The notes beneath the pieces were generated by a model. The model was given only the letters and a program-made list of their open reading frames with translations. It had not been told where the DNA came from and did no database searches. This document shows positions 8,544 through 33,313 of a stretch of DNA of 39,673 nt, piece by piece. Location of the stretch: assembly GCA_019358855.1 (NCBI GenBank), contig JAHHII010000022.1, forward strand, positions 1 to 39,673. The letters are read 5' to 3'. Every line of letters begins with the position of its first letter. The first letter of the stretch is position 1. Both the position numbers and the translations under genes were made by a program. The stretch is from Timaviella obliquedivisa GSE-PSE-MK23-08B. Lineage in GTDB: Bacteria; Cyanobacteriota; Cyanobacteriia; Elainellales; Elainellaceae.

Positions 8544-8647
8544 ACCAATTGATGCTGTGAGGTTTGGGCTTGCAGCAATGAGTTTACTTGTTAGAAATAG
8601 CGATCGCTTTAGGTCGTTTTTGTCCAATCATCATTGAGATCTAAAGT

Positions 8648-10153: not shown

Positions 10154-10154
10154 C

Positions 10155-11072: not shown

Positions 11073-11117
11073 CCGCTTAAGATTCACGCTTCTGGCGCGA
11101 TCGCCACCCACAAACTT

Positions 11118-12032: not shown

Positions 12033-12045
12033 AGGGAAGGCAATT

Positions 12046-13320: not shown

Positions 13321-13340
13321 AATTATCAAAGGAGTGATGT

Positions 13341-14435
13341 ATGGTTACCGCTAACTCGTTGCCTAAACAGGAACCGCAGGTCACGATCGTTGTCGTACCG
13401 CGTGAACGCTTTAGTTGCACTCGTGATTCGCTAGAGAGCATTTACGAATACACTACGCTTCCTTTTCAGTTAGTCTATGTCGATGGTAATTCTCCCCAGA
13501 AAGTCCATCACTACCTCAAAGAGAAAGCCGACGAGCGCGACTTCCAACTGATTCGCACTGATAACTACCTATCGCCCAATCAAGCCCGTAATTTGGGATT
13601 GAGCTACGTTCAAACCCGGTATGTGGTTTTTGTTGATAACGACGTGATTGTTTCTCCAGGCTGGCTTGAAGCGCTGGTGAACTGTGCAGACGAAACGCAA
13701 GCGGCGATCGTGGGGCCGCTGATGTGTCAGCACGAACCCATTCATGAAATCATTCACTTTGCCGGAGGCGAGTCGCATATCTGGGTCGATAAGACGGGCA
13801 GAAGACGGCTGCGCGAAAAAATGTATCGGCAGGGCAAGCGCGTTGATGAGGTTCGTCATGAACTTCAGCGCACTCCGACGGAACTGGCAGAGTTTCACTG
13901 CGTCTTAGTGCGAACCGAGATTTTTCAGCGATCGGGCGGACTCGACGAAGCCATGTTCAACACTAAAGAGCATCTTGACTTTTGCTTAACGGTAACTCAG
14001 CTTGGCGGCAAGATCTACTTCGAGCCTGCCAGTATCGTTACTTATGTACCCGGTCCACCGATCGAATGGTCAGATTTGCCCTTTTATATGCTGCGCTGGA
14101 GTGACGCTTGGACGCTAGCGAGCCTGCATCGCCTCAGAGATAAGTGGAACTTGTCTGAAGATGGGTACTTCCAAAATCGCTATAAGAAAGTGGGCTGTCG
14201 GCGGATGATGACGATCATTGCGCCTGTCGTCCATCGCGTCACCTTTGGACGCTACAGCAAGTTTCTGGAATCGCTTCTGGTGCAAGGCGATCGCACCTTA
14301 AATCGCTACCTCACCACTCGCCATGCCAAAAGCAACCCATACTTAAATTCAGCAGCCTTAAATTCAGCAGCCTTAAATTCAGCAGCCTTAAATTCAGCAA
14401 CGCCACAAATTCACTTGAGCAGTAAATCCTCATGA
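13341..14435 (+). CDS. Family-2 glycosyltransferase with repetitive C-terminus
   Basis: A 364-residue GT-A-like enzyme: QVTIVVVPRERFSCTRDSLE, SPNQARNLGL, and VVFVDNDVIVSPGWLEAL with DND in place of the usual DxD. GGLDEAMFNTKEHLDFCLTV supplies the downstream acidic residues. AAAGGAG lies 6-7 bases before the ATG. The C-terminus carries four copies of the pentapeptide LNSAA encoded by an exact 15-base tandem repeat (see 14343-14402), which looks like a disordered, length-variable tail. Its last four bases overlap the start of the ABC permease gene (ATGA), so the two are translationally coupled. Confidence 0.85.
   Translation: MVTANSLPKQEPQVTIVVVPRERFSCTRDSLESIYEYTTLPFQLVYVDGNSPQKVHHYLKEKADERDFQLIRTDNYLSPNQARNLGLSYVQTRYVVFVDNDVIVSPGWLEALVNCADETQAAIVGPLMCQHEPIHEIIHFAGGESHIWVDKTGRRRLREKMYRQGKRVDEVRHELQRTPTELAEFHCVLVRTEIFQRSGGLDEAMFNTKEHLDFCLTVTQLGGKIYFEPASIVTYVPGPPIEWSDLPFYMLRWSDAWTLASLHRLRDKWNLSEDGYFQNRYKKVGCRRMMTIIAPVVHRVTFGRYSKFLESLLVQGDRTLNRYLTTRHAKSNPYLNSAALNSAALNSAALNSATPQIHLSSKSS
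14343..14402 (+). repeat. Four tandem copies of a 15-bp coding repeat
   Basis: The unit TTAAATTCAGCAGCC is repeated at 14343, 14358, 14373 and 14388; the first three copies are identical and the fourth differs only in its last codon (ACG for GCC). It encodes LNSAA each time and stays in frame for any copy number. Sequence identity between copies points to recent slippage. Confidence 0.95.
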
Positions 14436-15286
14436 GAAGTCAATTTCCTAAAGTTGTTTATACCCCTGAAGGGACGTTGCGGCATCCACGACAGCTATTT
14501 AGGCAAATGTGGCACGATCTACTAGCCTCCCGCGAATTGGCATGGCGACTAATGGTGCGAGATATTAGCGCTCAGTATCGTCAGTCAGTGTTGGGTTTTT
14601 TCTGGGCATTTATTCCACCCATTGTGATGGCGATCGGCTTTACACTCGCTAGCGAAGCGAACATTTTTCAACCAGGGGCGATCGAATTGCCCTACCCCGT
14701 GTATGTGATGTTTAGCACGGCAATTTGGCAAACGTTTGTGGAAGCAGTCAGTGGTCCAGTGCAAGCAGTAGTAACGGCAAAGCCAATGATTGCTAAAGTT
14801 AACTTTCCCCGTGAGGCAATTATTTTAGCAAAAATAGGTGAAGTGCTGTGTAATTTTGTCGTCAAGCTAATATTGATCGTGGCATTATTCTTAATTTATA
14901 AAGTTTCGGTTGCCTGGACGATTATTTTAGCTCCTGTAGCTCTAATTCATCTGATTATGTTAGGTACATTAATAGGCACCTTACTATCGCCGTTAGGAGT
15001 ACTGTACCAAGATGTTTCCAGAGCTTTAGCCATGATTACGGGTTTTTGGCTATTTCTAACGCCAGTTGTCTACTCTGTTCCAGAACAAGGAATGTTAGGT
15101 TGGCTAGTCAGGCTCAATCCTGTCACTCCATTGTTGGTTACAATTCGGGAGCTTTCTACAACAGGTATTCTTTCAGAAGTTACAGGTTTCTGGATCGTCA
15201 GCGGCTTGACGTTCATCGGGCTATTTCTAGCCTGGATTGCTTTTCGCCTTGCTATGCCCTATGTCATTGAAAGAGTTAGTTCATGA
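14432..15286 (+). CDS. wzm: ABC-2 type polysaccharide export permease (Wzm/KpsM-like)
   Basis: A 284-residue inner-membrane permease with about six membrane segments. The N-terminal block LMVRDISAQYRQSVLGFFWA is the conserved amphipathic entry region of the family, and GFWLFLTPVVYSVPEQ and RLNPVTPLLVTIRE are also typical. It forms the channel through which a lipid-linked glycan leaves the cytoplasm, powered by the ATPase encoded next (15283, overlapping by 4 bases). Overlaps on both sides show tight coupling with the preceding glycosyltransferase and the ATPase. Confidence 0.9.
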   Translation: MRSQFPKVVYTPEGTLRHPRQLFRQMWHDLLASRELAWRLMVRDISAQYRQSVLGFFWAFIPPIVMAIGFTLASEANIFQPGAIELPYPVYVMFSTAIWQTFVEAVSGPVQAVVTAKPMIAKVNFPREAIILAKIGEVLCNFVVKLILIVALFLIYKVSVAWTIILAPVALIHLIMLGTLIGTLLSPLGVLYQDVSRALAMITGFWLFLTPVVYSVPEQGMLGWLVRLNPVTPLLVTIRELSTTGILSEVTGFWIVSGLTFIGLFLAWIAFRLAMPYVIERVSS

Positions 15287-16569
15287 TTAATACTAAAACC
15301 GAGGAGAGATCTACGTTTGCAACAGATAGCGGTAGTGTTATTGCAGTTGAACAGGTTTCCAAAAAGTTTTGTCGAGAACTTCGGCGATCGCTTGGTTATG
15401 GCGTTCAAGACATTGCTGCCGAATTAACGGGTAGATCTCGTAAAAGCGACACTTTGCGGCGAGGAGAGTTTTGGGCACTGAAAGACGTTAGCTTTAACCT
15501 TCGACCTGGTGAAGCATTAGGTTTGGTTGGTTCAAACGGTGCGGGCAAAAGTACGTTGCTACGAATGCTTAGCGGCTTGATTAAACCCGATACTGGGCGG
15601 ATTGCAGTTAACGGCAGGCTGGCACCTTTGATTGCGCTGGGCGCGGGGTTTAATCCAATCCTGACTGGGCGAGAAAACATCTATGCAAATATGTCGATTT
15701 TGGGACTGTCAACCCGCGAAATTCGACGACGCTTCGATGATGTCATCAATTTTGCCGAGATTGAAGACGCGATCGACTCGCCTGTACAAACCTACAGTTC
15801 AGGGATGGCAGCCCGCTTGGGATTTGCTTGCGCCATTTATGTTGAACCAGATATTTTGCTGATTGATGAAGTGCTGGCAGTTGGAGATGCTAATTTCAAA
15901 GCAAAGTGCTATCGGCGTTTGCACAAGCTCCGTCAAAACGGAGTTGCGTTTATTTTGGTCAATCACAATACTCAAGCAATTCTCAACACCTGTGATTCTG
16001 CACTTTATTTAGCTAAAGGACGGCTTATTCATGCGGGTGCAGTGGATGAAATTGTGACGCAGTATGAAAAGGATTTATTTCTTAGTGGAGTTGAACATTA
16101 TTCAAATCGTCTGGTTTTACCTTTAAAGCCAGAATCGGAAAGCTCAGGTTTAGATATTCAATCTCTTTACTTCAAAAACCCTCAAGATGAAATTTCAAGT
16201 CTTCTTGTCGTAGGCGAACCCATCAGTTTTTGTGTCAGTTGTCTGGCTCGAAAACCTCTAACCAATGTATCGCTTCACTTTAAAGTTTCCAAGGTAGGAG
16301 GTGATGACAGTGTAGGTACAGTACTATTTTTGAGCGGTGACAATGACAATACTTTCTTCAACCTTTCGAGGGGTTCACATGAGATACAGATGCAAATGCC
16401 GTACTTAGGATTGGAACCTGGATCGTATACAGCATTAGTTAAAATCAAACAAGATTCTGTTTATACTTTTGATGTGGTCGAGTCATTTCGCTTTACGGTT
16501 TTGTCAAATGGGAAAATGCAGTCCTGCAAGTTTTATCAGCCTCGATCGTGGAGTAGTGTCGCCCTTTAA
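15283..16569 (+). CDS. wzt: ABC transporter ATPase with C-terminal glycan-recognition domain (Wzt-like)
   Basis: A 428-residue protein. The ABC domain (about residues 20-255) has Walker A GSNGAGKST at about 83, the signature YSSGMAARLGFA, Walker B ILLIDEVLAVGD and the switch histidine in VNHNTQ. The C-terminal part (about 290-425) is a beta-rich extension of the Wzt_C kind, which in O-antigen exporters binds the modified non-reducing end of the glycan and so couples export to chain completion. Its presence suggests that the exported polymer carries a capping or recognisable end group. It pairs with the permease at 14432. Confidence 0.9.
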   Translation: MINTKTEERSTFATDSGSVIAVEQVSKKFCRELRRSLGYGVQDIAAELTGRSRKSDTLRRGEFWALKDVSFNLRPGEALGLVGSNGAGKSTLLRMLSGLIKPDTGRIAVNGRLAPLIALGAGFNPILTGRENIYANMSILGLSTREIRRRFDDVINFAEIEDAIDSPVQTYSSGMAARLGFACAIYVEPDILLIDEVLAVGDANFKAKCYRRLHKLRQNGVAFILVNHNTQAILNTCDSALYLAKGRLIHAGAVDEIVTQYEKDLFLSGVEHYSNRLVLPLKPESESSGLDIQSLYFKNPQDEISSLLVVGEPISFCVSCLARKPLTNVSLHFKVSKVGGDDSVGTVLFLSGDNDNTFFNLSRGSHEIQMQMPYLGLEPGSYTALVKIKQDSVYTFDVVESFRFTVLSNGKMQSCKFYQPRSWSSVAL

Positions 16570-16609
16570 CAACCTCCTGCTGCCACCCTTAAAGTAACAT
16601 CAATCTGAT

Positions 16610-17494
16610 ATGAGCAGTCCTTTACTTAGCATTATTATTCCGACTCACAATCGCCCTCAACTAGTACAGCGAGCGGTGCAAAGTGCATTGGAGCAAACTG
16701 CTAAAGAAATTGAAGTTATTGTCGTAGATGATGCTTCAACCGAGCCTGTAATCTTGCCTTCACAGTCTAATCTCAAACTGATTCGCCTTCAGCCAGGGCG
16801 GGGCGGGGCAGGTGCTCGTAATGTTGGTACTGAAGCCGCTCAAGGGCGCTGGGTGACGTATTTAGATGATGACGATCGCTTACTACCACATATGGCAAGT
16901 GTCTCACTACAAGCACTGCTAACAACAACATTTTCACCGCCGATCGCAATCATTTCTGGAATTGAAGTAATCAATACTCAGGGCAAGGTTTTACGAGTCC
17001 GAACACCGCCGTCTGTTCGTCTCAAAGGATGCCATTTTGCGCTGGAAGATTTAGAGCCGCAATATTCTTACAATACAAAGCAAACAATGGTTGTAGAACG
17101 AGCCATCATTCAAAAAATTGGTGGATGGGATGAAACATTTCGATCGCGAGTTCACTCAGAGCTATTTCTGCGTCTCAATTCTGCCTGTTCAATTTTGGGT
17201 CTACCGATCGTCACTTATCAACTGTATTCCCATGATGCTGACAGAGTTTCTCGCAACGGAATTTTGCGCCAAGAGAGTTTTCGGCGATTGATTACTAAAC
17301 ATCAAACAGCGTTTCGTGCCCATCCCAAACGATTTGCAAGTTTCATTCTGGAACATGCTCACTCATCTTATCGAATGGGGCAGAAGCAAGCCGCAATTTC
17401 TAGCTTGCTGTGGGCACTGCGTATTCATCCTCAACAAACGCTAGCTCAATCATTTTCAATCTTGCGCCACTCAGCTTACTCCATGTTCTTATGA
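16610..17494 (+). CDS. Family-2 glycosyltransferase
   Basis: A 294-residue GT-A enzyme: LLSIIIPTHNRPQLVQRAVQ, VIVVDDAST, GAGARNVGTEAAQGRWVTYL and the metal-binding DDDD run. The downstream GGWDETFRSRVHSELFLRL block replaces the more usual GxFDE…ED pattern. It lacks membrane segments and should be cytoplasmic or peripheral. It lies 40 bases after the ABC ATPase and only 3 bases before the next glycosyltransferase. Specificity cannot be read from the sequence. Confidence 0.86.
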   Translation: MSSPLLSIIIPTHNRPQLVQRAVQSALEQTAKEIEVIVVDDASTEPVILPSQSNLKLIRLQPGRGGAGARNVGTEAAQGRWVTYLDDDDRLLPHMASVSLQALLTTTFSPPIAIISGIEVINTQGKVLRVRTPPSVRLKGCHFALEDLEPQYSYNTKQTMVVERAIIQKIGGWDETFRSRVHSELFLRLNSACSILGLPIVTYQLYSHDADRVSRNGILRQESFRRLITKHQTAFRAHPKRFASFILEHAHSSYRMGQKQAAISSLLWALRIHPQQTLAQSFSILRHSAYSMFL

Positions 17495-18459: not shown

Positions 18460-20163
18460 ATGCTGTACTTCATTATCGTCTGGATTATTCTTCTTCAGCT
18501 TTGTTACGTCATTGGAATTGGAATACTGAATGATCTAAAAGCTACTCAATTTCAACGGCAAGGCGATCGCTTTATTGCTGCTGTTTGGCTAGGCATAACG
18601 GTTTTAGCGTCTGTACTTCTGGCAACTGCGCTCCTTGTTCCATTATCGAGTGAAGTTGGCGGTTTAGTGGCATTCAGTCTTGTTGGCATAGCACTGCGCT
18701 CCGCCGCCGCTCGAAGAGAACTAATAGCATTGAAGTCACAAGTTTCGCCTTCTGCTTTATGGGCAACACTTGCCCTAGCAATTGGCTTGGCAAATCTGAC
18801 ATCCCGCGAAGTCACTTGGCTTGATACAGGTCTTTATCACTACAGTATTATTCAATGGCTGCGGCAGTTTGGAGTAGTTCCTGGCATTGCTTTGTTATTC
18901 AGTAACTTGGGATTTACCTCTTCGTGGTTTGCCTTAACTGCAACTTTTAGCTCTATAGAAGTTGCTGCTCAGGTCAGCGCAGTCATCAATGGATTTGCCT
19001 TATTTATCTCAGTCTTAAGTGCAGCAATTTGTCTGCATCATTTTTTTAAGCAACAAGCTGTGATTAGCGACTGGTTCTTGGCTTTATTTCTAAGTTTTAT
19101 TTTCATGATGATTTTAAGATTAGAGCTTTTACAAAATCTTCTAATCTCTCCATCTCCTGACTTCCCTATTTTATTATTGGTAGGAATTATCACCTGGTCG
19201 CTGCTGATCAGCATTCCCTCTCTCTCTTTTTTTAACTCTTCCTCAACAGTGCCAATTATTCTATCGGCAGGAGCCGTAGCGATCAAGCTCACTGCACTTC
19301 CACTGTTATGGGTTACCTTTTTGCTGCTGTTGGTCAGCAAACCTACCTTTCGTCAAATTGGATATATAGGAACCATCGTTACTCTGCTAATTTTACCTGC
19401 TCTACTTTCTGGAGTTATCACTTCTGGCTGCCCTCTTTACCCTTCATCACTTCTTTGCCTAGATCTGCCCTGGTCAGTTGCTTCTACGAATGTACAAAAA
19501 GTGGTAGAAGGAACCCATCAATGGAGTAATTGGTATGGAGATTCTCCAACAGGAAGCAATTTATGGATCTGGCTGCTTTGGCAATGGTTTGAGGACGATA
19601 AGTTAAATAAAGTGACGGCATTCTTGATTGCTAGCTCTAGCCTTGCTGCCCTTAATATCCTAGGCTACTCTATTAAGCAGCCTCATCATCATCGTCTCAT
19701 TCCTGTACTAGCGATCGGGTTTTCGGGCATCGGTTTTATCATGCTCACTTCTCCACTTTTCAGGTTCAGTATCTCTTACACCCTGGTCATTCCAGTTCTC
19801 TATTTAAGTATCAATGGGCATCGGTTTTTGCAACAGAAAATACTGGCTGCCGATCGCCTGGTTGCCTTCAAACCCCTGTCACGTAAGTTTCAACAAATGA
19901 TTCAGGTAATTCCCTGGTTGCTTGTTAGCTGGCTGATAAGCTCAAGTTTGAAATACGATACTTTTTATTTACTGGTACCACCTCCTTTACAAGAATCTCT
20001 AACAACTAAACAGCAAATTAATGATATTAATTACTTCTCTCCTCGGGAGGACGAATTCTGCTGGTCAACTCCTCTACCGTGCGCCTTCAAAGTAGCGCCA
20101 GATATTAAACTGCGAGACCCTGCACGAGGCATTAGTGGGGGGTTTATTCGGCAGACACATTAA
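18460..20163 (+). CDS. Polytopic membrane protein, LIC_10190-like, possible GT-C-type enzyme
   Basis: A 567-residue protein with roughly a dozen hydrophobic segments and few soluble loops. Two blocks match a family of uncharacterised bacterial membrane proteins (LIC_10190 type): WLDTGLYHYSIIQWLRQFG then VVPGIALLFSNLGFTSSWF, and SGCPLYPSSLLCLDLPWSV. An Asp before a Tyr-His pair in the first outside loop is reminiscent of GT-C glycosyltransferases, which use lipid-phosphate sugars on the periplasmic side, but that assignment is inference. As last gene of the cluster it may modify or transfer the glycan after export. Confidence 0.7.
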   Translation: MLYFIIVWIILLQLCYVIGIGILNDLKATQFQRQGDRFIAAVWLGITVLASVLLATALLVPLSSEVGGLVAFSLVGIALRSAAARRELIALKSQVSPSALWATLALAIGLANLTSREVTWLDTGLYHYSIIQWLRQFGVVPGIALLFSNLGFTSSWFALTATFSSIEVAAQVSAVINGFALFISVLSAAICLHHFFKQQAVISDWFLALFLSFIFMMILRLELLQNLLISPSPDFPILLLVGIITWSLLISIPSLSFFNSSSTVPIILSAGAVAIKLTALPLLWVTFLLLLVSKPTFRQIGYIGTIVTLLILPALLSGVITSGCPLYPSSLLCLDLPWSVASTNVQKVVEGTHQWSNWYGDSPTGSNLWIWLLWQWFEDDKLNKVTAFLIASSSLAALNILGYSIKQPHHHRLIPVLAIGFSGIGFIMLTSPLFRFSISYTLVIPVLYLSINGHRFLQQKILAADRLVAFKPLSRKFQQMIQVIPWLLVSWLISSSLKYDTFYLLVPPPLQESLTTKQQINDINYFSPREDEFCWSTPLPCAFKVAPDIKLRDPARGISGGFIRQTH

Positions 20164-20810: not shown

Positions 20811-23800
20811 TTAGTGACGTAGACACAGACTAGCGATCGCTTTTACCAGCTTCTCTGCTTCCACAGGTTTTGTGAGATGGACTTGAAATCCGACCTGAAG
20901 TGCTTTTTGTTGGTCAACTTCTGCTGCATAAGCAGTCAGGGCGATCGCTGGAATCGTGCCGCCTTGGTTAGGTGAGCGCGATCGAATCTGCTGGATTAGC
21001 ATATAGCCGTCCATATCAGCCATGCCCACATCACTCACAATGACATTGGGAATGAATTGATCTAGCGCTTGTAATGCTTCTAAACCAGAGGTAACGGCTG
21101 TTACATTTGCGCCGCTTTGTTCCAGCAAAAATACCTGCAACTCGCGTGCATCTTGCTCATCATCTATTAGCAAAATCTGAATGCTTTCTAAAAGTACTTC
21201 TTCACTTGCCGGGATGGCAATGGGCTCAGATGAGATCGAGGTTGTCTGCTGTAAGATAGGCAACTGCACAATAAAGGTCGCGCCTTGATTCTCCCCCTGG
21301 CTCTCTGCCCAAACCGTGCCTCCGTGCATTTCTACAATTTGGCGCACGATCGCCAACCCCAATCCTAAGCCGCCAAATTTGCGCGTTGTCGAGCCGTCTT
21401 CTTGCCGAAAATACTCAAATACTTGGGCCAGAAAATTAGGAGTAATGCCCTTGCCCGTATCGATCACCCGTATTTGTGCTAAGCGATCGAGTTGTCGCAG
21501 TTCAACGATTACTTGTCCGCCGTTAGGTGTGAATTTAACTGCATTAGTGAGTAAATTCCACACTACTTGCTGTAAACGGGCGGCATCACCAGAAATCAGC
21601 GCGGTTGCTGGGTCTAAATCAATCTTTAGCGCAATACCCTTCGCTTCTACTGCCAAACGCACGGTTTCAAGGGCAGCAGAAATCACAGACGTTAAACTGA
21701 CGGGAGCTGCTGTTAAAGATAGTTTCCCCTGCATAATCCGAGAGATGTCGAGCAAGTCTTCAATCAGCTGCGACTGCAATTTGGCATTACGCTCGATCGT
21801 TTTCAGGGCTTCAGCTTGACGAGAGGGATTAAATGTACGGCTTTGCAGTAGACGTGTCCAGCCCAAAATTGGGTTGAGGGGCGATCGCAGTTCATGGGAC
21901 AGTACCGCTAAGAATTCGTCCTTAATTCGATTAGCCCGTTCGGCTTCTTCACGGGCGGATTTCTCTTGTTGTAAAAGGCGTTTGCGATCAGTGATGTCTC
22001 GCGTCACGCCCGCGACTGCTTCTACTGTGCCGTTTGCATTTAAAAGCGGCACGAAGATATACTCATAGTCATGAGTCCCAAACGCGCTTGTGTAGGGGGT
22101 TTCATCCCTAACGGGTTGGCGTGTCTCAATGACTTGCTGAATCTGATTTTGCAGCTGGGTTGCTAAGTCGGTTGGGTATTCTATGTCAAAAAAGTTTTTG
22201 TCTATCACCTCAGCCGACGTTTTTTGTAAAAGGTTGAGCAACTGCTGATTACTATAGGTAAATCGTCCTGATCGATCGAAGGTGTAAATGAAATCGGGTA
22301 CGGAAGCGGCGATCGCGTCAAACCTTTGCAGTTGTCGTTCGAGTTCGGCGGAGGTTTGACGCAGGGCTGTTTCAGATTGAATTTGGTCAGTAACATTTCT
22401 GAAATAGGCTGTGACTCCATTAGCGGCTGGATAGGTATGGACTTCGTACCAGCGATCGTGATCGGGATAAAACGCAGTTAATGATCCATCCACGCGCTCA
22501 GATGCGGCGCGCCGATAAAGCGGCTCAAACTCGCTACCATTGAGACCTGGATATTCTTCCCACAGGTTCTTTCCAATTAAGTCACTGGGGGAGCGATCGA
22601 GCATTGCTTCAGCGGCTCGATTCACGTAGGTGAATAGCCAGTTTTCATCCAGCGCGAAGAATGCATCTGTAATACTGTCTAGAATATTCTGGCTCTGCTC
22701 TTCGCTCTTTTGCAAGGCAGTCTCGGCTTGTTTTCGATCGGTAATATCCCGAGAAATCGCCACCAGTTGCACAACCCGCCCGGCTGCATCTTGCACAGGC
22801 GTAACGATACTATCCCACCATTTCGGGGTGCCCTTAGCAGTAGGAAGATAGCCTTGAAATTGCCCTGTACCCCCCATTGTGGCGGCAGCGATCGCAGCTT
22901 TTGCATTTTCATAATCCTCGCCTTGCCATTTATCAACCCAGACCGTATTCAAGATCGAAGCTGGATCGTCGATTTCTAGCAGACACAGCCCACCTGCACT
23001 AATGTAGAAGATTCTGCTATCCAACGTTAAAACTTTGATGCAGTCTCTACTGCTCTCCAAAATGCTCTCCTTCAGTTCTTCACTTTCTCGCAATGCCTCT
23101 TCAGATTGTTTGCGATCGGTAATATCAACAGCAGCTCCGTAAATGACCTCTTCTTCTGAGTAAGGCTGGGCATTCCAGAGAAACCAGCGGTAGGAGCCAT
23201 CTTTGTGCCGATAACGGTTTTCAAAGGCAAAGGTTTCGTTGCCAGAGAAGAAATGATTGACTTCCGAGATAGATGGATTAAGGTCATCTGGGTGAACACA
23301 ATCAGTCCAGGGACGCGAGATCATTTCGTCCAACGACCAACCTAGCACTCGTTCAAAAGTCGGGCTGACCCATTGAAAATAGCCGTGGCTGTTTGTAATG
23401 ACTTGTAGATCCGAGCCAACGGCGAGAAAGCGATCGCGCTCCTGTTCAGCTTTTTTGCGATCGGTGATGTTGGTGAATAAAATGGCAAACTGATTACTTC
23501 GCGGTTCACCAATGCAAAAAGCGTTGACATCAAACCAACGGTTCATCGCGATCGACTGTTGCTCAAACCGCACAGATTCTCGCGTCTGCACCACTCTCTC
23601 ATACGTTTTAACCCAATCTGCTTCGAGATTAGGAACCAGTTCTCGTGCTGTTTTGCCTAGTGCTTGCTCCAGTCCTGTCATTGCTTCAAACATTGAATTG
23701 ACTTCGAGGAACCGATAATCAATTGAAGTACCGTTCTGGTCAAACAGGAGTTCGCAGATGCAAAAGCCTTCGTCGATCGACTCGAACAAAGTCCGGTATT

Positions 23801-24218
23801 TTGCTTCCGATTTGCGTAAGGCAAGACTGGAGCGATCGCGCCGTTCTTGTGCTTCTCGTAATGCCTGTTGGACACAGGGGGCTAGCCGTTCTAACCGTTG
23901 CTTCAGAACGTAATCTGTAGCTCCGCATTTCAGAGCTTCGATCGCCAGTTCTTCGCCTAAGCTGGCAGAGATAAAAATAAATGGAGTTTCAGGGCGCAAG
24001 TCACAGGCAACTTCTAGTGCAGCAAGACCCCCAAAACCAGGCATCGCATAAGCCGCCAAAATCAAGTCTAATGTCTCAGTTTCTAACGCTGTCACAAAGT
24101 CAGCACGAGTATCTACCCGCAGCAAATTGTACTCAATACCGCTGTCCATCAATGCGACTTGGATCAGTTCAGTATCCAGCAATTTATCTTCGAGCAGGAG
24201 AAACCGAAACATTGTCAT
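20811..24218 (-). CDS. Large hybrid histidine kinase: receiver, five PAS, HisKA, HATPase, receiver
   Basis: A 1135-residue cytoplasmic hybrid sensor. Order: N-terminal receiver (1-125), five PAS/PAC units (about 135-755, with DITDRK linkers), HisKA with H-box SHELRSPLNPILGW (about 785), HATPase with N-box NLLTNAVKFTPNGG, DTGKGI and GGLGLGLAIV, and a C-terminal receiver (about 1015-1130) with intact Asp in VSDVGMADMDGY. The N-terminal receiver is odd: the phosphorylatable Asp expected in LILADY is Ala56 (codon GCT, 24051-24053), so it probably cannot be phosphorylated. I start at ATG 24218, with AGAGG 7 bases upstream, rather than the GTG at 24221. No transmembrane segment. It sits alone on its strand. 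Confidence 0.9.
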   Translation of the reverse strand: MTMFRFLLLEDKLLDTELIQVALMDSGIEYNLLRVDTRADFVTALETETLDLILAAYAMPGFGGLAALEVACDLRPETPFIFISASLGEELAIEALKCGATDYVLKQRLERLAPCVQQALREAQERRDRSSLALRKSEAKYRTLFESIDEGFCICELLFDQNGTSIDYRFLEVNSMFEAMTGLEQALGKTARELVPNLEADWVKTYERVVQTRESVRFEQQSIAMNRWFDVNAFCIGEPRSNQFAILFTNITDRKKAEQERDRFLAVGSDLQVITNSHGYFQWVSPTFERVLGWSLDEMISRPWTDCVHPDDLNPSISEVNHFFSGNETFAFENRYRHKDGSYRWFLWNAQPYSEEEVIYGAAVDITDRKQSEEALRESEELKESILESSRDCIKVLTLDSRIFYISAGGLCLLEIDDPASILNTVWVDKWQGEDYENAKAAIAAATMGGTGQFQGYLPTAKGTPKWWDSIVTPVQDAAGRVVQLVAISRDITDRKQAETALQKSEEQSQNILDSITDAFFALDENWLFTYVNRAAEAMLDRSPSDLIGKNLWEEYPGLNGSEFEPLYRRAASERVDGSLTAFYPDHDRWYEVHTYPAANGVTAYFRNVTDQIQSETALRQTSAELERQLQRFDAIAASVPDFIYTFDRSGRFTYSNQQLLNLLQKTSAEVIDKNFFDIEYPTDLATQLQNQIQQVIETRQPVRDETPYTSAFGTHDYEYIFVPLLNANGTVEAVAGVTRDITDRKRLLQQEKSAREEAERANRIKDEFLAVLSHELRSPLNPILGWTRLLQSRTFNPSRQAEALKTIERNAKLQSQLIEDLLDISRIMQGKLSLTAAPVSLTSVISAALETVRLAVEAKGIALKIDLDPATALISGDAARLQQVVWNLLTNAVKFTPNGGQVIVELRQLDRLAQIRVIDTGKGITPNFLAQVFEYFRQEDGSTTRKFGGLGLGLAIVRQIVEMHGGTVWAESQGENQGATFIVQLPILQQTTSISSEPIAIPASEEVLLESIQILLIDDEQDARELQVFLLEQSGANVTAVTSGLEALQALDQFIPNVIVSDVGMADMDGYMLIQQIRSRSPNQGGTIPAIALTAYAAEVDQQKALQVGFQVHLTKPVEAEKLVKAIASLCLRH

Positions 24219-24365
24219 CACTGTGCCTCTTGCTAAAGTCTAGCTCTATTAGCAAACCATACTGTCTTGCTTCTGATGACTTATTTCGTCATATTTACTC
24301 CTTTCGATTAAATAATTAATCGCTTGGATTAACTCGGTCGGTTCGAGCAGGTTGCTCACATGTCG

Positions 24366-24597: not shown

Positions 24598-24647
24598 TAA
24601 ATGGAGCGATTACCGTTGAAATGCACTAAAACTTGTATTTGATTCAC

Positions 24648-25769
24648 ATGGTAGATAATTCTCTAAGCAGCGCACGTCCGCTAGGCGTTTTGGATAACAA
24701 ACCCGTTGCGCGGCGGGATCTTGTTGGTCCGAGCGATCGCACCGATTTTTTTAAGTTCAGCCTCAAACGCAGCAGTAATGTCAACTTCCAACTGTCTAAC
24801 CTGCAAGCAAATGCCGACTTGCTGTTGCTGAATCGCGCTGGTAAGGCGATCGCGCGATCGCGAAAGGGCGGCAAACAGGCAGAGCAAATCACTCGGCAGC
24901 TTCAGTCGGGCACCTACTACGTGCAGGTGTTGGGTCGCGGCAGCAAGAGCACCCGATACAAACTGTCAGGTTCTGCAACTGCTGGCGACGGCGGTGATGG
25001 CGGCGGTGGCGGCGGTGGCAGCAACGGCAACGGCACCCGCAGCAACCCATTTGATTTGGGGACTTTGAATGGTGGCTCTGTCGCGCGATCGCGCGACACG
25101 GCAGGCACTTCGGATGCAGAAAATAAATTCTACAAATTCCGGCTGGGGCAGATCAGCGACCTCAGTATTGCGCTCAGCCAAGTATCTGGCGGCGGCACGA
25201 TGCGCCTCTACAACGACACCAATCGCAACGGGGTACTTGATTTCAACGAATCAACCATTGACAGTGGTGACGGTTCTGTATCCTCAAATCGCCCCATTTC
25301 TGCGGTGTTCCCCTCCACAGAGACCTACTTCTTGCAAGTAGTGCGAGACTTTTCTTCCAGCACGATGCAGTACGACATCACGTTCAACACGACACAGTTT
25401 CCGGGCAACATTCCTACCGATCCGGGTAGCGAACCCACGACTGCATTCAACCTGGGCAGCTTGAGCAAAGGTGGACGCCTAGAAGCGAAAGACTACGTGG
25501 GGAGAGTGGACGAGAATGACCTCTATCGATTCACGCTAAACGAAACGGGGCAGGTCACGTTTGGCAAGGCGGATGTTGCGGGCGACATCAACACAAATGT
25601 CACCATCTATCAGGACAAAAACAACAACAACATCCTGGATTCTAACGAGTCGCTTGGTTCGCTCATCGGGGCAAACGGATCTGTCAACCTGCAAGCTGGA
25701 GCATACTACGTGTTGGCTAATCAGTCCAACGTGAATAACACCGCCTATTCGCTGAGCATTAGCGCGTAG
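24648..25769 (+). CDS. Protein with three PPC (pre-peptidase C-terminal) domains and EF-hand-like loops
   Basis: A 373-residue beta-rich protein with three repeats of the PPC type: DLVGPSDRTDFFKFSL … SGTYYVQVLG, AENKFYKFRLG … TYFLQVVRDF, and DYVGRVDENDLYRFTL … AGAYYVLANQ. A Gly/Asp-rich linker (about residues 112-130) separates the first repeat from the others. Repeats two and three carry DTNRNGVLDFNES and DKNNNNILDSNES, which match the DxNxNGxLDxxE calcium-binding loop. No peptidase domain and no signal peptide are visible. PPC domains usually help secreted proteins fold or bind surfaces, so this may be an extracellular Ca-binding protein exported by another route. I prefer the ATG at 24648 to the TTG at 24633. 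Confidence 0.78.
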   Translation: MVDNSLSSARPLGVLDNKPVARRDLVGPSDRTDFFKFSLKRSSNVNFQLSNLQANADLLLLNRAGKAIARSRKGGKQAEQITRQLQSGTYYVQVLGRGSKSTRYKLSGSATAGDGGDGGGGGGGSNGNGTRSNPFDLGTLNGGSVARSRDTAGTSDAENKFYKFRLGQISDLSIALSQVSGGGTMRLYNDTNRNGVLDFNESTIDSGDGSVSSNRPISAVFPSTETYFLQVVRDFSSSTMQYDITFNTTQFPGNIPTDPGSEPTTAFNLGSLSKGGRLEAKDYVGRVDENDLYRFTLNETGQVTFGKADVAGDINTNVTIYQDKNNNNILDSNESLGSLIGANGSVNLQAGAYYVLANQSNVNNTAYSLSISA

Positions 25770-25863: not shown

Positions 25864-25942
25864 TCTGTCCGCTTAACCCTCAAGTTGAGGCTGGTATACC
25901 TTTACTCTGTCAAGTTATGCGCTAGTTTAGAGGTGCTTGCTC

Positions 25943-27028
25943 ATGTTTAAGATGCTAACCCTGAATCCGCTAAGCTGTGTCTTGACGGTAGCCCTAGTAA
26001 CAACTATGACGCCACCCGTGGATGCCCAGACCAGATCTTACCGTGTTAGATGTCAAACGATGGTTTCTCTGGTCCAGGGAGTGAGTTTGACCTACCGACT
26101 GGCGGGTAGTCTGCCGGAGAACACTGCGGCGGAAATTCCTCAAAACCCGGTTGGAGCAACCTTGACCCTAACCGTGCAGTGGCAAGATCAAAATGGCCGC
26201 GTTCAAACCTTACTCAATGCTTCTGCTTTGAGTGATTATGAGCAGTTGGCTCCTGACGCTGACTATTCTCAACTGCCCTTTGAAGAAACGTTTCGCGGCC
26301 AGCCCAACAACGCCGATCGCCTATATGGGACACCAGCTTCGGTGCATGGACTCTACGTCAGTCTGCGTCCCACCAGCGGACAGCCCCAGCAGATGCAAAC
26401 TGTCCACTACTTGCGCCCTGATGAGTACGTGCGCTCAACGGTGGGCACTTGCCAGACTGAGAATGCTGATCTTGACATGTCTGTTGACGAGCAGTTGACA
26501 CTCTTACAAGAACGACTCCAGGCTGAAGACTGGGCCGCTGCCGATAGAGAAACCCGGCGGTTGCTTGCCCCGGAGTCAACCTCGCTGCCGCCGTTTGAGC
26601 CAGTGTTGGTGCAGCCAGATCTGATTCGTGCCATTGACCAGATGTGGCTAACGGCCAGCAGCGGACAATTTGGACTCAGTGTTCAGTTGCGTCTTTGGCA
26701 GCAAGCACTGGCCGCGCACCCTAACAATAGTGAAGCAGCTGTCAATGCCTTTCGCGATCGCGTAGGCTGGAAACTCGCTGCTCCTCGCTCTGAAGTTGAC
26801 TTCATCAGCAGTGACTGGTTGAATGAGTCGGAACTGACCTACTCCTTGCAAGCTCCGGAGGGACATCTGCCCTGGGGCGGGGTGTCGGATGAGGTGGTGC
26901 AATCGGTTGCTGTTCCACCGCCAGGAGTACATTGTGGCAGTTGTACTGTCGATGCCATGCAGCTGCGCAACGAACGCTTCTATCGCTACATTCCTCAACT
27001 GATGGAACGAGTGGAGTTGTCCTTGTAG
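25943..27028 (+). CDS. GUN4-domain protein with an N-terminal signal peptide
   Basis: A 361-residue protein. Residues 1-29 form a Sec-type signal peptide (basic start, hydrophobic LSCVLTVALVTTM, likely cleavage after PPVDA). A middle region of about 140 residues is unassigned. From about residue 180, LLQERLQAEDWAAADRETRR, IRAIDQMWLTASSGQFGLSV, FRDRVGWK and SLQAPEGHLPWGG match the GUN4 domain, whose known members bind protoporphyrin IX and Mg-protoporphyrin and stimulate Mg-chelatase in the cytoplasm or chloroplast stroma. A CGSC motif lies near the C-terminus. AGAGG about 9 bases upstream supports ATG 25943. Export would separate it from Mg-chelatase, so its role must differ. Confidence 0.8.
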   Translation: MFKMLTLNPLSCVLTVALVTTMTPPVDAQTRSYRVRCQTMVSLVQGVSLTYRLAGSLPENTAAEIPQNPVGATLTLTVQWQDQNGRVQTLLNASALSDYEQLAPDADYSQLPFEETFRGQPNNADRLYGTPASVHGLYVSLRPTSGQPQQMQTVHYLRPDEYVRSTVGTCQTENADLDMSVDEQLTLLQERLQAEDWAAADRETRRLLAPESTSLPPFEPVLVQPDLIRAIDQMWLTASSGQFGLSVQLRLWQQALAAHPNNSEAAVNAFRDRVGWKLAAPRSEVDFISSDWLNESELTYSLQAPEGHLPWGGVSDEVVQSVAVPPPGVHCGSCTVDAMQLRNERFYRYIPQLMERVELSL

Positions 27029-27242: not shown

Positions 27243-28571
27243 TTATCTCGTGGCAACGCGATCGCTAGGCTGTTGCATGAGACTGCTTCTAAGCGGGATC
27301 TGGATAATAAACTCTGTTCCTTGACCAGACGTAGAAATACAGATTAGCTTGCCCTTATGTTTCTCGGTAACGATTTGGTAGCTAATAGACATTCCCATCC
27401 CTGTTCCTTTTCCAGAGGGTTTTGTGGTGAAAAATGGATCGAAAATGCGGTGTTGAATCTCTTTAGAAATGCCGGAACCATTATCGGCGATCGCAATTTG
27501 TACCCACTGGGAATTAATCGCAGCGGTGCGAATCGTAATTCGACTGGGATTGCTCTGGTTTTCTTGATACGTTCGTTTTGCACTCAGTTCTTCAAGAGCG
27601 TCAATCGCATTTGCCAGAATATTCATAAACACCTGGTTCAGTGATCCGACATAGCATTCTACAGGTGGCAACTGACCGTAATCTCGAATCACCTGAATTT
27701 CTGGATGTTCAGGTTTGCTTTTGAGGCGATGTTGCAAAATTAGTAGCGTACTATTGATACCTTCATGAATATCCACAGCTTTGCATTCTGCCTCATCTAA
27801 ACGGGAAAAGTTGCGGAGCGATCGCACAATTTCGCAGATGCGCTGAGTGCCCATTTTCATCGATGCGAGGGTTTTGGGCAGATCTTGCTGAATAAACTCT
27901 AAATCGAGGTCTGCGACGGCATTTTGGAGTTCGGGTGCGGAATTGGCACTATGTTGTTGATATAACTGCACAAAGGACAATAAATCTTCGACATATTCCT
28001 GCACATAAGTGAGATTGCCATGAATAAAATTAACGGGATTGTTAATTTCGTGGGCAACACCAGCAACCAGTTGCCCCAACATTGTCATCTTTTCTGATTG
28101 CACTAACTGCACTTGAGACTGCTGCACTTGTTGCAGGGCATCTTTTAGTTCGTTGGTGCGTTCTTCTACCTGGTGTTCTAAGGTTTGATGCAGGTGGCGC
28201 AACTTTAATTGAGTGGTCACACGGGCAAGCAACTCTAGTTCTTGAAAGGGTTTGGTGACGTAGTCTACCGCGCCCAGTTTGAAGCCTCTGACCTTATCTG
28301 TTGTGTCAGATAGAGCCGTCATAAAAATCACCGGAATGTCGCAGGTAATAGAATCTGCTTTAAGGCGGCGACAGGTCTCAAATCCGTCAATCCCAGGCAT
28401 CATCACATCCAATAAAATTAAGTCTGGTTGGCTCATGGTTGCCTGTTTGATGGCGCGTTCTCCGTCAGTAGCGATCGCCACCTCAAATCCAGCGTCACCC
28501 AACGCTTCTGCCACTACCTCCAAATTGGCTGGAGTGTCATCGACTACTAAAATCAACTGAGTGTTATTCAT
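27243..28571 (-). CDS. Receiver-histidine kinase (REC-coiled coil-HisKA-HATPase)
   Basis: A 442-residue soluble protein. The N-terminal receiver has LILVVDDTPANLEVVAEALG, the phospho-acceptor Asp in LILLDVMMPGIDGFE, and the conserved Thr and Lys (FMTAL, VTKPFQ). A coiled coil (LEHQVEERTNELKDALQQVQ) leads into the kinase core: H-box QLVAGVAHEINNPVNFIHGN, N-box NILANAIDALEEL, ADNGSGI and GTGMGMSISYQIV. This architecture is very common in cyanobacteria as a downstream partner of hybrid kinases. Its start is 2 bases from the stop of the MASE1 kinase gene on the same strand, so phosphate probably passes from that kinase to this receiver. Confidence 0.9.
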   Translation of the reverse strand: MNNTQLILVVDDTPANLEVVAEALGDAGFEVAIATDGERAIKQATMSQPDLILLDVMMPGIDGFETCRRLKADSITCDIPVIFMTALSDTTDKVRGFKLGAVDYVTKPFQELELLARVTTQLKLRHLHQTLEHQVEERTNELKDALQQVQQSQVQLVQSEKMTMLGQLVAGVAHEINNPVNFIHGNLTYVQEYVEDLLSFVQLYQQHSANSAPELQNAVADLDLEFIQQDLPKTLASMKMGTQRICEIVRSLRNFSRLDEAECKAVDIHEGINSTLLILQHRLKSKPEHPEIQVIRDYGQLPPVECYVGSLNQVFMNILANAIDALEELSAKRTYQENQSNPSRITIRTAAINSQWVQIAIADNGSGISKEIQHRIFDPFFTTKPSGKGTGMGMSISYQIVTEKHKGKLICISTSGQGTEFIIQIPLRSSLMQQPSDRVATR

Positions 28572-28573
28572 AA

Positions 28574-31084
28574 TCAGCCTCTTCCAGCGCAGGTAACTTC
28601 ATCGAGCAATTGCTGAATAAATGCTTCCAATTTAGCAACCTGAAATCCATTGCTTAGATCAAGCAGTTGCTGTGTCAGAGGCGCATACTGTGGATTTTGG
28701 TGCTCCAAGGCTTTTGCAACCTCGCTCAGTTTTTTCAATCGTCCATGTTGGGCTAACTGAAGCAACTGGGTCAGGTCTGCCAACGGTGGACTAACAAGTG
28801 GCGTGAATGAATTAATGCTGCTGTTTGCTTTAGATATTAACGATTGCACCTGTTCATTCTCTGAAACTGTAGGTTGATAAATCCAGGTCAATTGCAAGTA
28901 TTTGTGGAGCATCTGAAACAAGTCATCTGCCTGCACAGGCTTTGTCAAAAAATCATTTCCTCCAGCGTCCAAGCTCTGCTGCTGATCCATATTGGAAACC
29001 GAGGCAGAAGAGACAATAACCGGAAGCGTTTGAAGAATCTCAGACTGCCGAATCTGTTGGAGAAACTCGTACCCATCCATGATCGGCATCATGATATCAG
29101 TGATGATTAAATTTGGCTTGATTTGAATCGCCTTCGTCAATCCATCCTGACCATCCTCTGCTTCGACTACGGTGAAGCCGAGAGGTTCTAACAAGCTGAC
29201 GATTACCGATCGGTTTTCCCACTTGTCGTCTGCTATGAGAATAGATTTACGTTCACCCTGATAACCTATCAGATACTCTCCGGTAGCGTTAGTCGGGGTC
29301 TGTTGCCATTCTGTGGCGATCGGCAATTCTATGTCACAGAAAAAGGTGCTACCCACGCCGATCTGACTTTGTACCTGAATTTGACTGCCCATGAGTTGAG
29401 CAATAGTCTGACTGATTGCTAGACCTAAACCAGTGCCTTCGGAATTTCGTTTTGAATCGCTGACCTGTTCAAACGGCTGAAAGATTTTTTCTAACGCCTC
29501 TGGACTCATGCCAATCCCGGTATCGCTGACCTGACACCGAAGCGTGACTGTTGATGACTCAGTAGAGTGATCCAGATCATTTAGGGGAATTTGATCAAGC
29601 CGTTCGACCCTAAAGGTCACCGTACCCTGATCGGTAAACTTGACGGCATTTCCCAACAGATTAATCAACACCTGCCGCAAGCGTTTCTCATCGACCTCAA
29701 TGCCCTCTGGTAAGTTGGCATCTGGTAGATACACAAAGTCAATGCCTTTTTGCTCTGCTCGGATACCTACGATCTCGGCAATTCCTTGTAATAGAGCAGG
29801 TAGATGAACTGTATGAGGGTCTAACTCCAGCCGACCGGCTTCAATTTTAGAGATGTCCAAAATGTCATTAATCAGGGTTAACAAGTGGGAACCGCACTGA
29901 TAAATAATGTCAACACCCTTACGTTCTTTTTTGCCCAAACTTTGAGAGCGACTCAGGATCTGGGCATATCCCAAGATGCCGTTGAGTGGAGTTCGTAACT
30001 CGTGGCTCATGTTTGCCAAAAATTCACTCTTGGCATGACTGGCAACCTCAGCCGCTTCTTTAGATTGATTCAACGCTGCTGTACGTTCCTCAACTTTGAA
30101 CTCTAGCTCCTCATTGACTTGCTCTATCCGTGCTTTTACCTGTTCTCGCTCAATGATGACGGCTGACAAAATTAGTGTGGTAACGGTGACAGTTCCAATA
30201 AACGCTTGCAATAGCAGCAGAGTTTCGTTGAGAGTGCTGCGATTGAATGAACTTGTGCCTCGGATGGCACCGACGATCGCCAAGGTCGAAACCAAAGCGA
30301 TCGCCATAGCTGTGAATCGTGGTTTAGCCCGAAATGCCGACCACACTAGCAGTGGAATCAGTAGATACTCAACCGGATAGCCAAAGCCAAAAGCTACCAT
30401 TCCCACGCCCAGCAGTGAGAAAGCCCAGCCCACAACTTCTAGGATAGACTGAAGCGATCGCCGTGACGAGTGTTGCATTGCTGAGATTGTTGGTTTGACG
30501 GCTTTCCCTCTGTGCTTACTCAGCCAATGCTCAATCCAAAACAGCAGCAGCGGTGCAACTACCAGAACTCCAATGGCATCTCCTAACCAGAAAGTTACCC
30601 AGCTAATGAGGTAGTTTTTTCCATCAATAAATCCGCACAGATATAGGGTAGTCGAACCTACAGTTGGGCTCACCATACAACTCAGAAGTTCAATTCCAGT
30701 AAATTTAGTAACGTTCGGTGCATTAGTAAAAATATGGTGGGAACCTATGAAGCGTTTAATGAGAAATGCACCGACTACTGCCTGTAAAACTGAACCTGTG
30801 GCAAGACCGAGACCAGACACGATCGACATGGGCAAAATGCCTGTATTTGCCCAAAGCGCCCACGTTGCAGCAACTAATGCTCCTAACCAAATGCCCCACC
30901 AAACTCGATAGCCCATGAGCAAAATTGCTGCAAGTGCAATGCCTGATGGTGGATAGACGGGCGTAATAAATCCGGGCGGAATCGCCAGATATTGCCCAAG
31001 TTTTGCTGTGCCATAGTAGATGAGGGCGATCGAAAGGATAAGCAGAATTTTCTTGAAGCTATTGGGGAAGACTTTTGAATTCAT
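28574..31084 (-). CDS. MASE1 membrane hybrid histidine kinase
   Basis: An 836-residue protein. The first 310 residues form a MASE1 integral-membrane sensor (about eight segments, with [20 protein letters not shown] and [20 protein letters not shown] as signatures). A coiled coil ([20 protein letters not shown]) leads to HisKA ([19 protein letters not shown]), HATPase ([25 protein letters not shown]) and a receiver with Asp in [16 protein letters not shown]. The last 100 residues are helical, and I do not assign them to the Hpt family because no clear phospho-histidine motif is visible. The ligand of MASE1 is unknown. It is the first gene of a two-gene operon with 27243-28571. Confidence 0.9.
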
Positions 31085-32009: not shown

Positions 32010-33098
32010 TTAGTAGCGCAGAATCAGAGCAACTCGCTGATGGTTTTGTAGGGTTTCATCATCGACAAATACCACTTTTCCTCCTTTGCCCATCACCGCT
32101 TCGATCAGTTCATCCACAGCATCATCCATCACATCGATCGCAGTCAAATCGTCAGCGGACACTAACTTCATACCGCTTGAGTCTACTCGAGCAGGATAGC
32201 GAAACCCTTCCTCCACCAGCAGCAAATCTCCACGCCCCTCCTGTGCCATCCGCCATGCTTCCTCCATTCCCGATGCACAGAGTTGAGCCCCGATCGCATT
32301 GTCAAGGCGCTCCAGAGCAGTTTTTCGCTGTTCGGTCAAAGCGTCTTGAATGATGGGATAGACCAGCTTGCCTAAGTCATGGGGCGAGGTCTTGTCATGA
32401 TTGCCGCTGAGAGTTGCAATGACCGCATCTTTGTGCGCTGAAACCTCGTTAAACAGGCTGAAGTAGCGATCGATGCCCACGAGTACCAGCGGCAATGGAT
32501 CGGCAGCCATCAGCGTTGTCAAAACAGCATCAGCTTTATGCAAATACTGATGGTGCAGGTCATCGCCGCGATTTGCGGAGGTATTCATTTCTTGGCTATC
32601 GGGGAGCTTGATGCTGTCGCCAGATTCTGCATTCATTAAGGGAGACTCGTTTGTCCCCACTTCCTCCAAGCTATCGAGTACTCCAGCAAACAGGTTTGTA
32701 GAGTTCTCACTCATTGCCAGAACCCAATAGCGAGGCGTTCGGTTCAAGGCAAAGACCAGATCTCGCGTCGCGAAGGTTTCGTCTACCACCACTCGGTCTT
32801 CAAAGGCAAAGGCTTGATAATAGACCCGATAGAGTTCTTGGTTAGCAAATATAGCTAGTCCATCTAAGGTATGAGAATAATCGATCGATTCAACAGCTTG
32901 GTCGAGTTGAGCCAACACAGGAGTTAGCTCACGTTCAGAGAAATCAAGCTGAAGTCGTTCCTTCGCTTCATTCGTCAGATTTTTTACCCGAATTGGATCT
33001 TGCTGATTTTCAGGAGCGCTACGGTGCGTTGTCAGCAAAATGGATACAGACGGATAGCTATGTATGGATTGCAAAAACTTGACATCATCTTGATTCAT
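32010..33098 (-). CDS. baeRF-family eRF1-like protein (possible ribosome-associated stress factor)
   Basis: A 362-residue soluble protein. The architecture and motifs (SVSILLTTHR near the N-terminus, LDGLAIFAN, VLALNRTPRYWVLAMS-like segment, PLVLVGIDRYFSLFNEVSAH, then GRGDLLLVEEGFRYPA and GGKVVFVDDETL) match the bacterial/archaeal release-factor-like (baeRF) proteins, which resemble domains 2 and 3 of eRF1/Pelota. A related member, Balon, binds the ribosomal A site in hibernating ribosomes; whether this subfamily does the same is not known to me. It has no GGQ motif that I can see, so peptide release is unlikely. Start chosen at ATG 33098; GTG at 33101 is adjacent. Confidence 0.72.
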   Translation of the reverse strand: MNQDDVKFLQSIHSYPSVSILLTTHRSAPENQQDPIRVKNLTNEAKERLQLDFSERELTPVLAQLDQAVESIDYSHTLDGLAIFANQELYRVYYQAFAFEDRVVVDETFATRDLVFALNRTPRYWVLAMSENSTNLFAGVLDSLEEVGTNESPLMNAESGDSIKLPDSQEMNTSANRGDDLHHQYLHKADAVLTTLMAADPLPLVLVGIDRYFSLFNEVSAHKDAVIATLSGNHDKTSPHDLGKLVYPIIQDALTEQRKTALERLDNAIGAQLCASGMEEAWRMAQEGRGDLLLVEEGFRYPARVDSSGMKLVSADDLTAIDVMDDAVDELIEAVMGKGGKVVFVDDETLQNHQRVALILRY

Positions 33099-33313
33099 CA
33101 CATTTTCTCTTTCAGGGTTTTTGCTCAGGGGGCTTTGGCAGGCATTAGTTGGAGCCTATCGTAGGATAGGTCAGCTAAGCATCTATCAAACTGTTGATAT
33201 ATTCATCATTAATCACGCTGATATCCAGTGATCAGGGATACGACATGAGGTTTTCCAAAGATGGTGTGTACAATGTGCGCAATACACTCGCTGAATTTTG
33301 CTCAGAGCCTTCT

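Follow-up and report, generated by a model that had tools for sequence, protein, structure and literature searches.

Most work on GUN4 concerns its role as an intracellular cofactor in chlorophyll synthesis. Among the closest described systems is the Mg-chelatase cofactor GUN4 of Synechocystis (sll0558; PDB 1y6i, 4xkb, 4xkc and 7e2t), which has its fold and its Pfam family (PF05419) in common with the protein analyzed here. According to the available portion of PMC8967248, porphyrin binding in a W192A strain is described as altered, and changes at the plant equivalents of F196 and R214 lower the porphyrin affinity. In the available portion of PMC10156173, LxNxLR is given as the bilin motif, the CrGUN4 variant N219G is reported to lose bilin and to keep porphyrin, and cyanobacterial GUN4 paralogues without the Asn of this motif are described; the paralogues of the Synechocystis sll1380 type treated there lack the bilin motif, as does our protein. 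GUN4 is also known as a movable module fused to kinases, caspases, trypsin and TIR domains (PMC7159879, PMC8195603 and PMC8283722, in the parts available), a property common to these fused paralogues and to the clade described below, the partner names at the sampled loci being given by eye. The accessible text of PMC7517822 features both GUN4-like domains and predicted signal peptides among retroelement variable proteins, in separate places and without joining the two. The terms "signal peptide", "periplasm" and "secreted" are absent from PMC10156173, and in the accessible portions of the open-licence PMC literature we found no description of an exported GUN4 clade with a CGSC motif.

The locus analyzed here lies in a 39,673-nucleotide stretch of the Timaviella obliquedivisa genome, hereafter the window, for which an earlier note made from the sequence had proposed an ORF encoding a GUN4 protein with a signal peptide, an N-terminal domain without family assignment and a CGSC motif after GUN4. 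Both the ORF and the CGSC motif were confirmed (Table 1). Unlike the Mg-chelatase cofactor, the window protein has a predicted signal peptide, replacements at W192 and F196, no LxNxLR motif and a CGSC tail, and its genome has a separate canonical GUN4. We assign a probability of about 0.6 to the reading that it is an exported, disulfide-latched GUN4-fold module and not a Mg-chelatase cofactor.

Table 1. Features of the GUN4-CGSC gene and its product, in window coordinates.
Feature	Position	Strand	Basis
CDS, predicted exported GUN4-CGSC protein, 361 aa	25943..27028	+	ATG 25943, stop ends 27028
Shine-Dalgarno-like GAGGTG, ahead of ATG 25943	25930..25935	+	sequence; orthologue comparison
Residues 1-28, predicted to be a Sec-type signal peptide cut at VDA^Q	25943..26026	+	rule-based scan; L048-L050
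Residues 30-176, all-beta N-terminal domain, a small barrel by prediction	26030..26470	+	AlphaFold2
GUN4 domain (PF05419), residues 183-311	26489..26875	+	Pfam; VIA-align; Foldseek
W311-x-G313; counted directly from GHLP, placed at Leu209-x-Asn211 in the bilin-binding LxNxLR of Synechocystis GUN4	26873..26881	+	alignment
C-terminal tail defining the clade, GG...CGSCTVDAM...RFYRYIP	26876..27025	+	tail profile; tree
CGSC motif, residues 331-334	26933..26944	+	sequence; AlphaFold2; comparison of members

When the whole protein was searched against 36 genomes of the order, three other genomes proved to have full-length relatives (82-88% identity, one with an in-frame stop), and more had partial matches. 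The N-terminus of the window protein, MFKMLTLNPLSCVLTVALVTTMTPPVDA^Q, combines a basic residue with a hydrophobic core and ends at an A-x-A-like cut site, and these properties were recognized by our rule-based scan. The hydrophobic segment and the VDA^Q end are also present in the three orthologues compared (L048, L049 and L050), so that both the scan and conservation support the signal peptide. The start codon was considered as well, since the same ORF could, if its start is mis-called, encode an ordinary GUN4 paralogue of the cytosol: Met22 is in frame and follows the hydrophobic stretch. This residue is Thr in all three orthologues, which keep the hydrophobic segment and the VDA^Q end, and a downstream start, named in the earlier note as evidence against export, is therefore unlikely. 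The Shine-Dalgarno-like site ahead of ATG 25943 likewise stands against a mis-called start, as do the 33 of 38 members whose export-type start lies close to the beginning of the frame, and we regard such a mis-call as very improbable. In the orthologues GAGG, GAGG or AAGG precedes the matching start in all three cases. An in-frame TTG lies six bases 5' of the ATG of the window gene. Codon changes in the signal-peptide region of the orthologues were too few for the codon test to decide on selection.

The PF05419 match of the window protein has 68.8 bits (E 7.1e-19) at a curated cut-off of 29.2 and thus is not due to chance; among the five GUN4 matches of its own genome it ranks last, the canonical copy scoring 210 bits. 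From 45 aligned rows, AlphaFold2 modeled the mature protein at a mean pLDDT of 81.9 and a pTM of 0.66. For the predicted C-terminal part, the best Foldseek match was 7e2r (E 2.5e-5), and VIA-align retrieved eight GUN4 entries at Z from 13.6 to 14.7 (1z3x 14.7, 4xkb 14.5, 7e2t 14.4), 132 residues being aligned to 1z3x with an rmsd of 2.5 and the first row other than GUN4 having Z 7.8. As judged from these matches and the model, the domain is a real, divergent GUN4 domain that retains the GUN4 fold. Of the "well-conserved GUN4 core" described previously, the assignment to GUN4 thus stood, given the bit score and the fold, and "well-conserved" did not, given the rank of the match in its genome. 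The phage library PHROGs yielded no match for the protein. PADLOC aligned its model of PD-T4-6, a phage-defence protein, with the GUN4 part (residues 182-311), and for the other two members tried it reported PD-T4-6 plus ankyrin- and repeat-type models; hence, the GUN4 domain alone can draw that label.

The N-terminal domain remained without a family, with no Pfam match over the cut-off (best E 0.03) and no NCBIfam match. Modeled alone, it is all-beta (AlphaFold2 pLDDT 79.2, pTM 0.79). Foldseek found no matches for this model at E ≤0.001 and the best VIA-align hit had Z 6.8, which points to no specific structural relative among the matches listed. Its Cys37 and Cys170 are invariant in 11 of 11 aligned rows and may close the predicted barrel. 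The domain is rare, being found in three of 386 sampled genomes, and in two loci (L010 and L015) it stands alone behind a start that by eye resembles a signal peptide.

To compare the porphyrin-contact residues with those of Synechocystis GUN4, as the earlier note had proposed, we numbered the pocket through the GUN4 of the same genome and chain 1y6i, the comparison covering the published positions alignable here and not the full contact set. Both alignments place Glu295 at W192 and Leu298 at F196. Among the 33 aligned tail-bearing rows, W192 is replaced in all, by E or D in 32, and F196 has given way to L, I or M in all; F196 is mostly lost in tail-less paralogues too (F in three of 25 rows). 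The bilin motif is absent as such, the window protein reading GHLPWGGVSD and the canonical copy GHLPLSNQLR. Counting directly after GHLP, all 33 rows have W in place of L209 and G in place of N211; a second alignment, which has a gap after GHLP, pairs N211 with the residue preceding that G, and none of the 33 rows has Asn at the aligned place. The W-x-G pattern occurs in 41 of the 42 regions (43 given) where the script found the motif, the remaining one, L074, having S-x-G. The partner of R214 depends on the placement of the gap, being D by the direct count, S, or an R after CGSC, a position where just 11 of the 33 members have R. Thus, two of the published porphyrin-affecting residues, W192 and F196, are lost in the window protein and the third varies with the gap, and the porphyrin-binding role suggested in the earlier note is not supported, since at the positions aligned the note's own check on loss of contact residues goes against it: W192 has become E, F196 has become L and LxNxLR is absent. 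No result speaks to the stress-sensing role that it also suggested.

These residues bear on the possibility that the protein is an exported tetrapyrrole carrier or scavenger, which, located in the periplasm or lumen, would limit photo-damage by still binding porphyrin, haem or products of chlorophyll breakdown. The GUN4 fold is kept. Provided that the direct count holds, all 33 rows carry at the N211 position the Gly of CrGUN4 N219G, which in the accessible text of PMC10156173 keeps porphyrin, so that porphyrin binding would still be possible. Against this, W192 and F196 are replaced in every aligned tail-bearing row, the former almost always by an acidic residue, and the effects of W192A and of the plant F196-equivalent change described in the available part of PMC8967248 are altered binding and lower porphyrin affinity, respectively. 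A carrier or scavenger role appears unlikely on this balance. Under the preferred reading the old GUN4 pocket would still be used, and a tetrapyrrole is a putative ligand that we propose only tentatively, considering it less probable than not.

The tail following the GUN4 domain has the pattern W-x-G...CGSCxxD and, taken alone, matches no Pfam family. Of 42 other members, 41 retain CGSC with its middle GS and L058 is without both Cys, and all 42 CGSC-bearing members, the window protein included, have Asp three residues past the motif; the fragment L079 reads CGTC. In the AlphaFold2 model the last helix begins at the second Cys of CGSC. The predicted mature window protein has four cysteines, at positions 37, 170, 331 and 334. 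The GUN4-plus-tail regions (n = 42) have exactly two cysteines, those of CGSC, in 34 cases, none in one, three in one, four in three and five in three. An extra pair of cysteines, the first close to the third conserved helix and the second close to the C-terminus, is present or absent as a unit: by the script, five regions have both, and 35 have neither. The extra pair is also seen by eye in L047, where the script pattern missed one Cys, and L046, a protein that ends early, has only the first Cys of the pair.

The two CGSC cysteines probably form a disulfide, a conclusion drawn from sequence comparison; as a counterpoint, tail-less GUN4 proteins, most of them without a signal peptide, carry cysteines too. 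Alternatively, the motif could make the protein a thiol-disulfide enzyme or redox switch, its CGSC swapping disulfides with partners that bind to the ankyrin, WD40 or barrel domain. In thioredoxins CxxC sits at the start of a helix, and this position is shared by the window protein, where the strict retention of CGSC and of the following Asp, and the joint absence of both Cys in L058, would also fit such an activity. The predicted fold, however, matches GUN4 among the structures listed and seems to differ from that of thioredoxin-like CxxC proteins, neither the window protein nor its tail matches a thioredoxin or other redox family in Pfam, and no redox family was found among ten neighbor proteins run through Pfam, a small sample. 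We therefore consider catalysis or switching by CGSC improbable.

Other interpretations of the motif were rejected. CGSC resembles the motif of papain-like proteases, and neither the protein nor the tail has a Peptidase_C1 (C1) match in Pfam. As a c-type cytochrome signature it would be followed by H, and the residue after CGSC is T in 31, S in six, M in three, A in one and F in one of 42 cases, never H. A search of solved structures with the tail profile retrieved insulin B chains, from E 0.023, and a few unrelated proteins among the best 60 of 83 matches, which we attribute to chance.

Nine tail-less paralogues (L098, L112, L119, L124, L137, L138, L140, L141 and L004, the last from the same genome as the window) share a C-terminus of the type ~WFW..PW...G.G..RGG. 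Most of them have C..D after it, resembling CGSCxVD, and by the rule used none of the nine has a signal peptide. Derivation of CGSC from the RGGCxVD tail of such paralogues is favored by the alignment, but the group is not sister to the clade in the tree.

We analyzed the distribution of the tail beyond the order. In a sample of 386 genomes from the phylum, covering 143 genera, a tail-only profile matched at least 14 genomes and at least 13 genera, both counts being lower bounds, with 17 candidates scored per genome in most genomes shown. A scan of genome contigs with one peptide pattern found at least 34 loci, all in records titled cyanobacteria, two of them (L080 and L081) without the tail. 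After removal of duplicates there were 46 tail-bearing places: 42 with a readable CGSC region, all distinct; the window; two with an in-frame stop (L008 and L013); and the fragment L079. Sorting by hand, with Pfam applied to examples, distinguished the following architectures: barrel-GUN4-tail in nine; GUN4-tail-WD40 in 12, plus L035 with a remnant; ankyrin-GUN4-tail in eight, of which two also have WD40; an N-terminal domain without family assignment followed by GUN4-tail in eight; and GUN4-tail without a further partner in six, including L044 with a second GUN4 after the tail and L046 with an in-frame stop. L013 and L079 were too short to be sorted.

In a tree built without the tail columns, the 33 tail-bearing rows are separated from the 26 others with support 99/97 and in 100% of 200 bootstrap trees. 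The tree includes 25 of the 60 tail-less places fetched and omits L004, L133, the second GUN4 of L044, L046 and nine members similar to others. Within the clade, the type with the unassigned domain forms one group (99/96), the barrel type is weakly one group (91/5) and the others are mixed; the partner labels need seven changes on the tree. The common tail, the clade and the swaps of partner domains are thus observed directly. Another possibility is a plain structural or adhesive module in which the GUN4 fold serves as a scaffold for protein contacts in the envelope, with neither a ligand nor a redox role. Several of the partners are contact modules (ankyrin, WD40), the pocket residues have changed and the spread is sporadic; but the strict conservation of CGSCxxD and W-x-G over long distances suggests more than packing. 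We regard a purely structural role as rather unlikely, yet as the likeliest of the rivals.

Export-type N-termini were sought across the clade by our own simple scan, not SignalP, which requires a basic start, a hydrophobic core and a cut site or lipobox. Thirty eight other members have a readable frame start, four more being cut off at the locus end; 33 of the 38 have a signal-peptide-like start within 80 residues of the frame start and 36 have one anywhere before GUN4. The window protein is also positive. L035 and L057 are negative, and L068, L071 and L072 are positive only if translation begins over 100 residues inside the open frame. The members are related and some are nearly identical, so these counts are not independent. 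The export-type start persists through the changes of partner domain.

Tail-less GUN4 proteins served as controls. None of the 18 in the first set was positive within 80 residues and five were positive anywhere, all of them more than 200 residues in and kinase-like. The second set comprised 60 tail-less places hand-picked down a ranking, 58 of them with a readable start; four of the 58 were positive within 80 residues and seven anywhere before GUN4, and CGSC occurred in none of the 60. The pooled controls thus gave four and 12 of 76, respectively, some of the firings being in membrane segments, and in both properties the sampled tail-less paralogues differ from the window clade. By eye, the four early positives consist of a kinase-like start (L086), membrane segments (L135 and L139) and one convincing signal peptide (L134). 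The comparison therefore supports the export and the unassigned N-terminal domain claimed for one protein and extends these claims to a clade. The sequences and their comparison suggest export to the periplasm, the thylakoid lumen or the outside; for signal-peptide hydrophobicity in relation to the compartment, a trend, with no threshold, is described in the available portion of PMC12341915.

The control L134 (G012:C331), which lacks CGSC, groups with L129 (G005:C60), a protein with hydrophobic segments, at support 100/99. This second, separate GUN4 lineage suggests that GUN4 may have been exported more than once.

The preferred reading of an exported, disulfide-latched module can be put as follows. 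A paralogous GUN4 domain would have been rebuilt for an oxidising compartment, with a Sec signal peptide carrying the protein across the membrane and the N-terminal barrel being one of several exchangeable partners. The published tetrapyrrole-affecting residues would have changed in the process, LxNxLR being replaced by W-x-G together with CGSC at the start of the last helix; a disulfide between the two CGSC cysteines would latch the old ligand pocket at its lip, and in the cell envelope or lumen the domain would bind a ligand or a partner. By the residues tested, the protein is predicted not to act as a Mg-chelatase cofactor, and the predicted export signal argues against the cytosolic ChlH-binding role of GUN4. 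A more elaborate version would be a redox-gated exported tetrapyrrole sensor, in which the CGSC disulfide opens or closes the old pocket in the envelope or lumen, oxidising conditions set the holding of porphyrin and the partner domain relays the state; we consider it quite doubtful. If the clade is indeed exported, the GUN4 fold would have moved to another compartment for another job, and the clade offers a natural test of GUN4 binding without ChlH, with CGSC and W-x-G as residues for mutation.

No gene common to all barrel-type loci was found by clustering of neighbors. In the window, a PPC-domain gene lies just upstream (24633-25769, +); a relative is found upstream in L048 and another beside the stand-alone N-terminal domain in L010. 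A beta-lactamase-like gene lies upstream in L051 and has relatives in L041 and L042, and response-regulator-type genes occur at several loci, which we read as a common family. In the WD40 type, a predicted lipoprotein (lipobox by eye) is encoded upstream in L061, L064, L067, L068, L069 and L070, a hydrophobic membrane-type protein beside L061, L064, L068 and L071; some members have predicted lipoproteins downstream as well. The WD40-type genes (L061, L064 and L067-L071) follow closely behind these lipoprotein or membrane genes, a setting that favors the preferred reading, and three neighbors run through Pfam gave no family.

The surroundings of the window gene have further features. Three histidine kinase genes with receiver domains lie around it (20811-24221, 27243-28571, 28574-31084, -). 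Several glycosyltransferase genes and an ABC transporter with a Wzt C-terminal domain occupy 7503-17494 (+), probably a surface polysaccharide cluster, and are followed by a 567-aa ORF (18460-20163, +) with no Pfam match at E 0.001. On the opposite strand, 32010-33101 (-) encodes a protein that matches the AOC03_06830-family ribosome hibernation factor (388 bits at a cut-off of 330).
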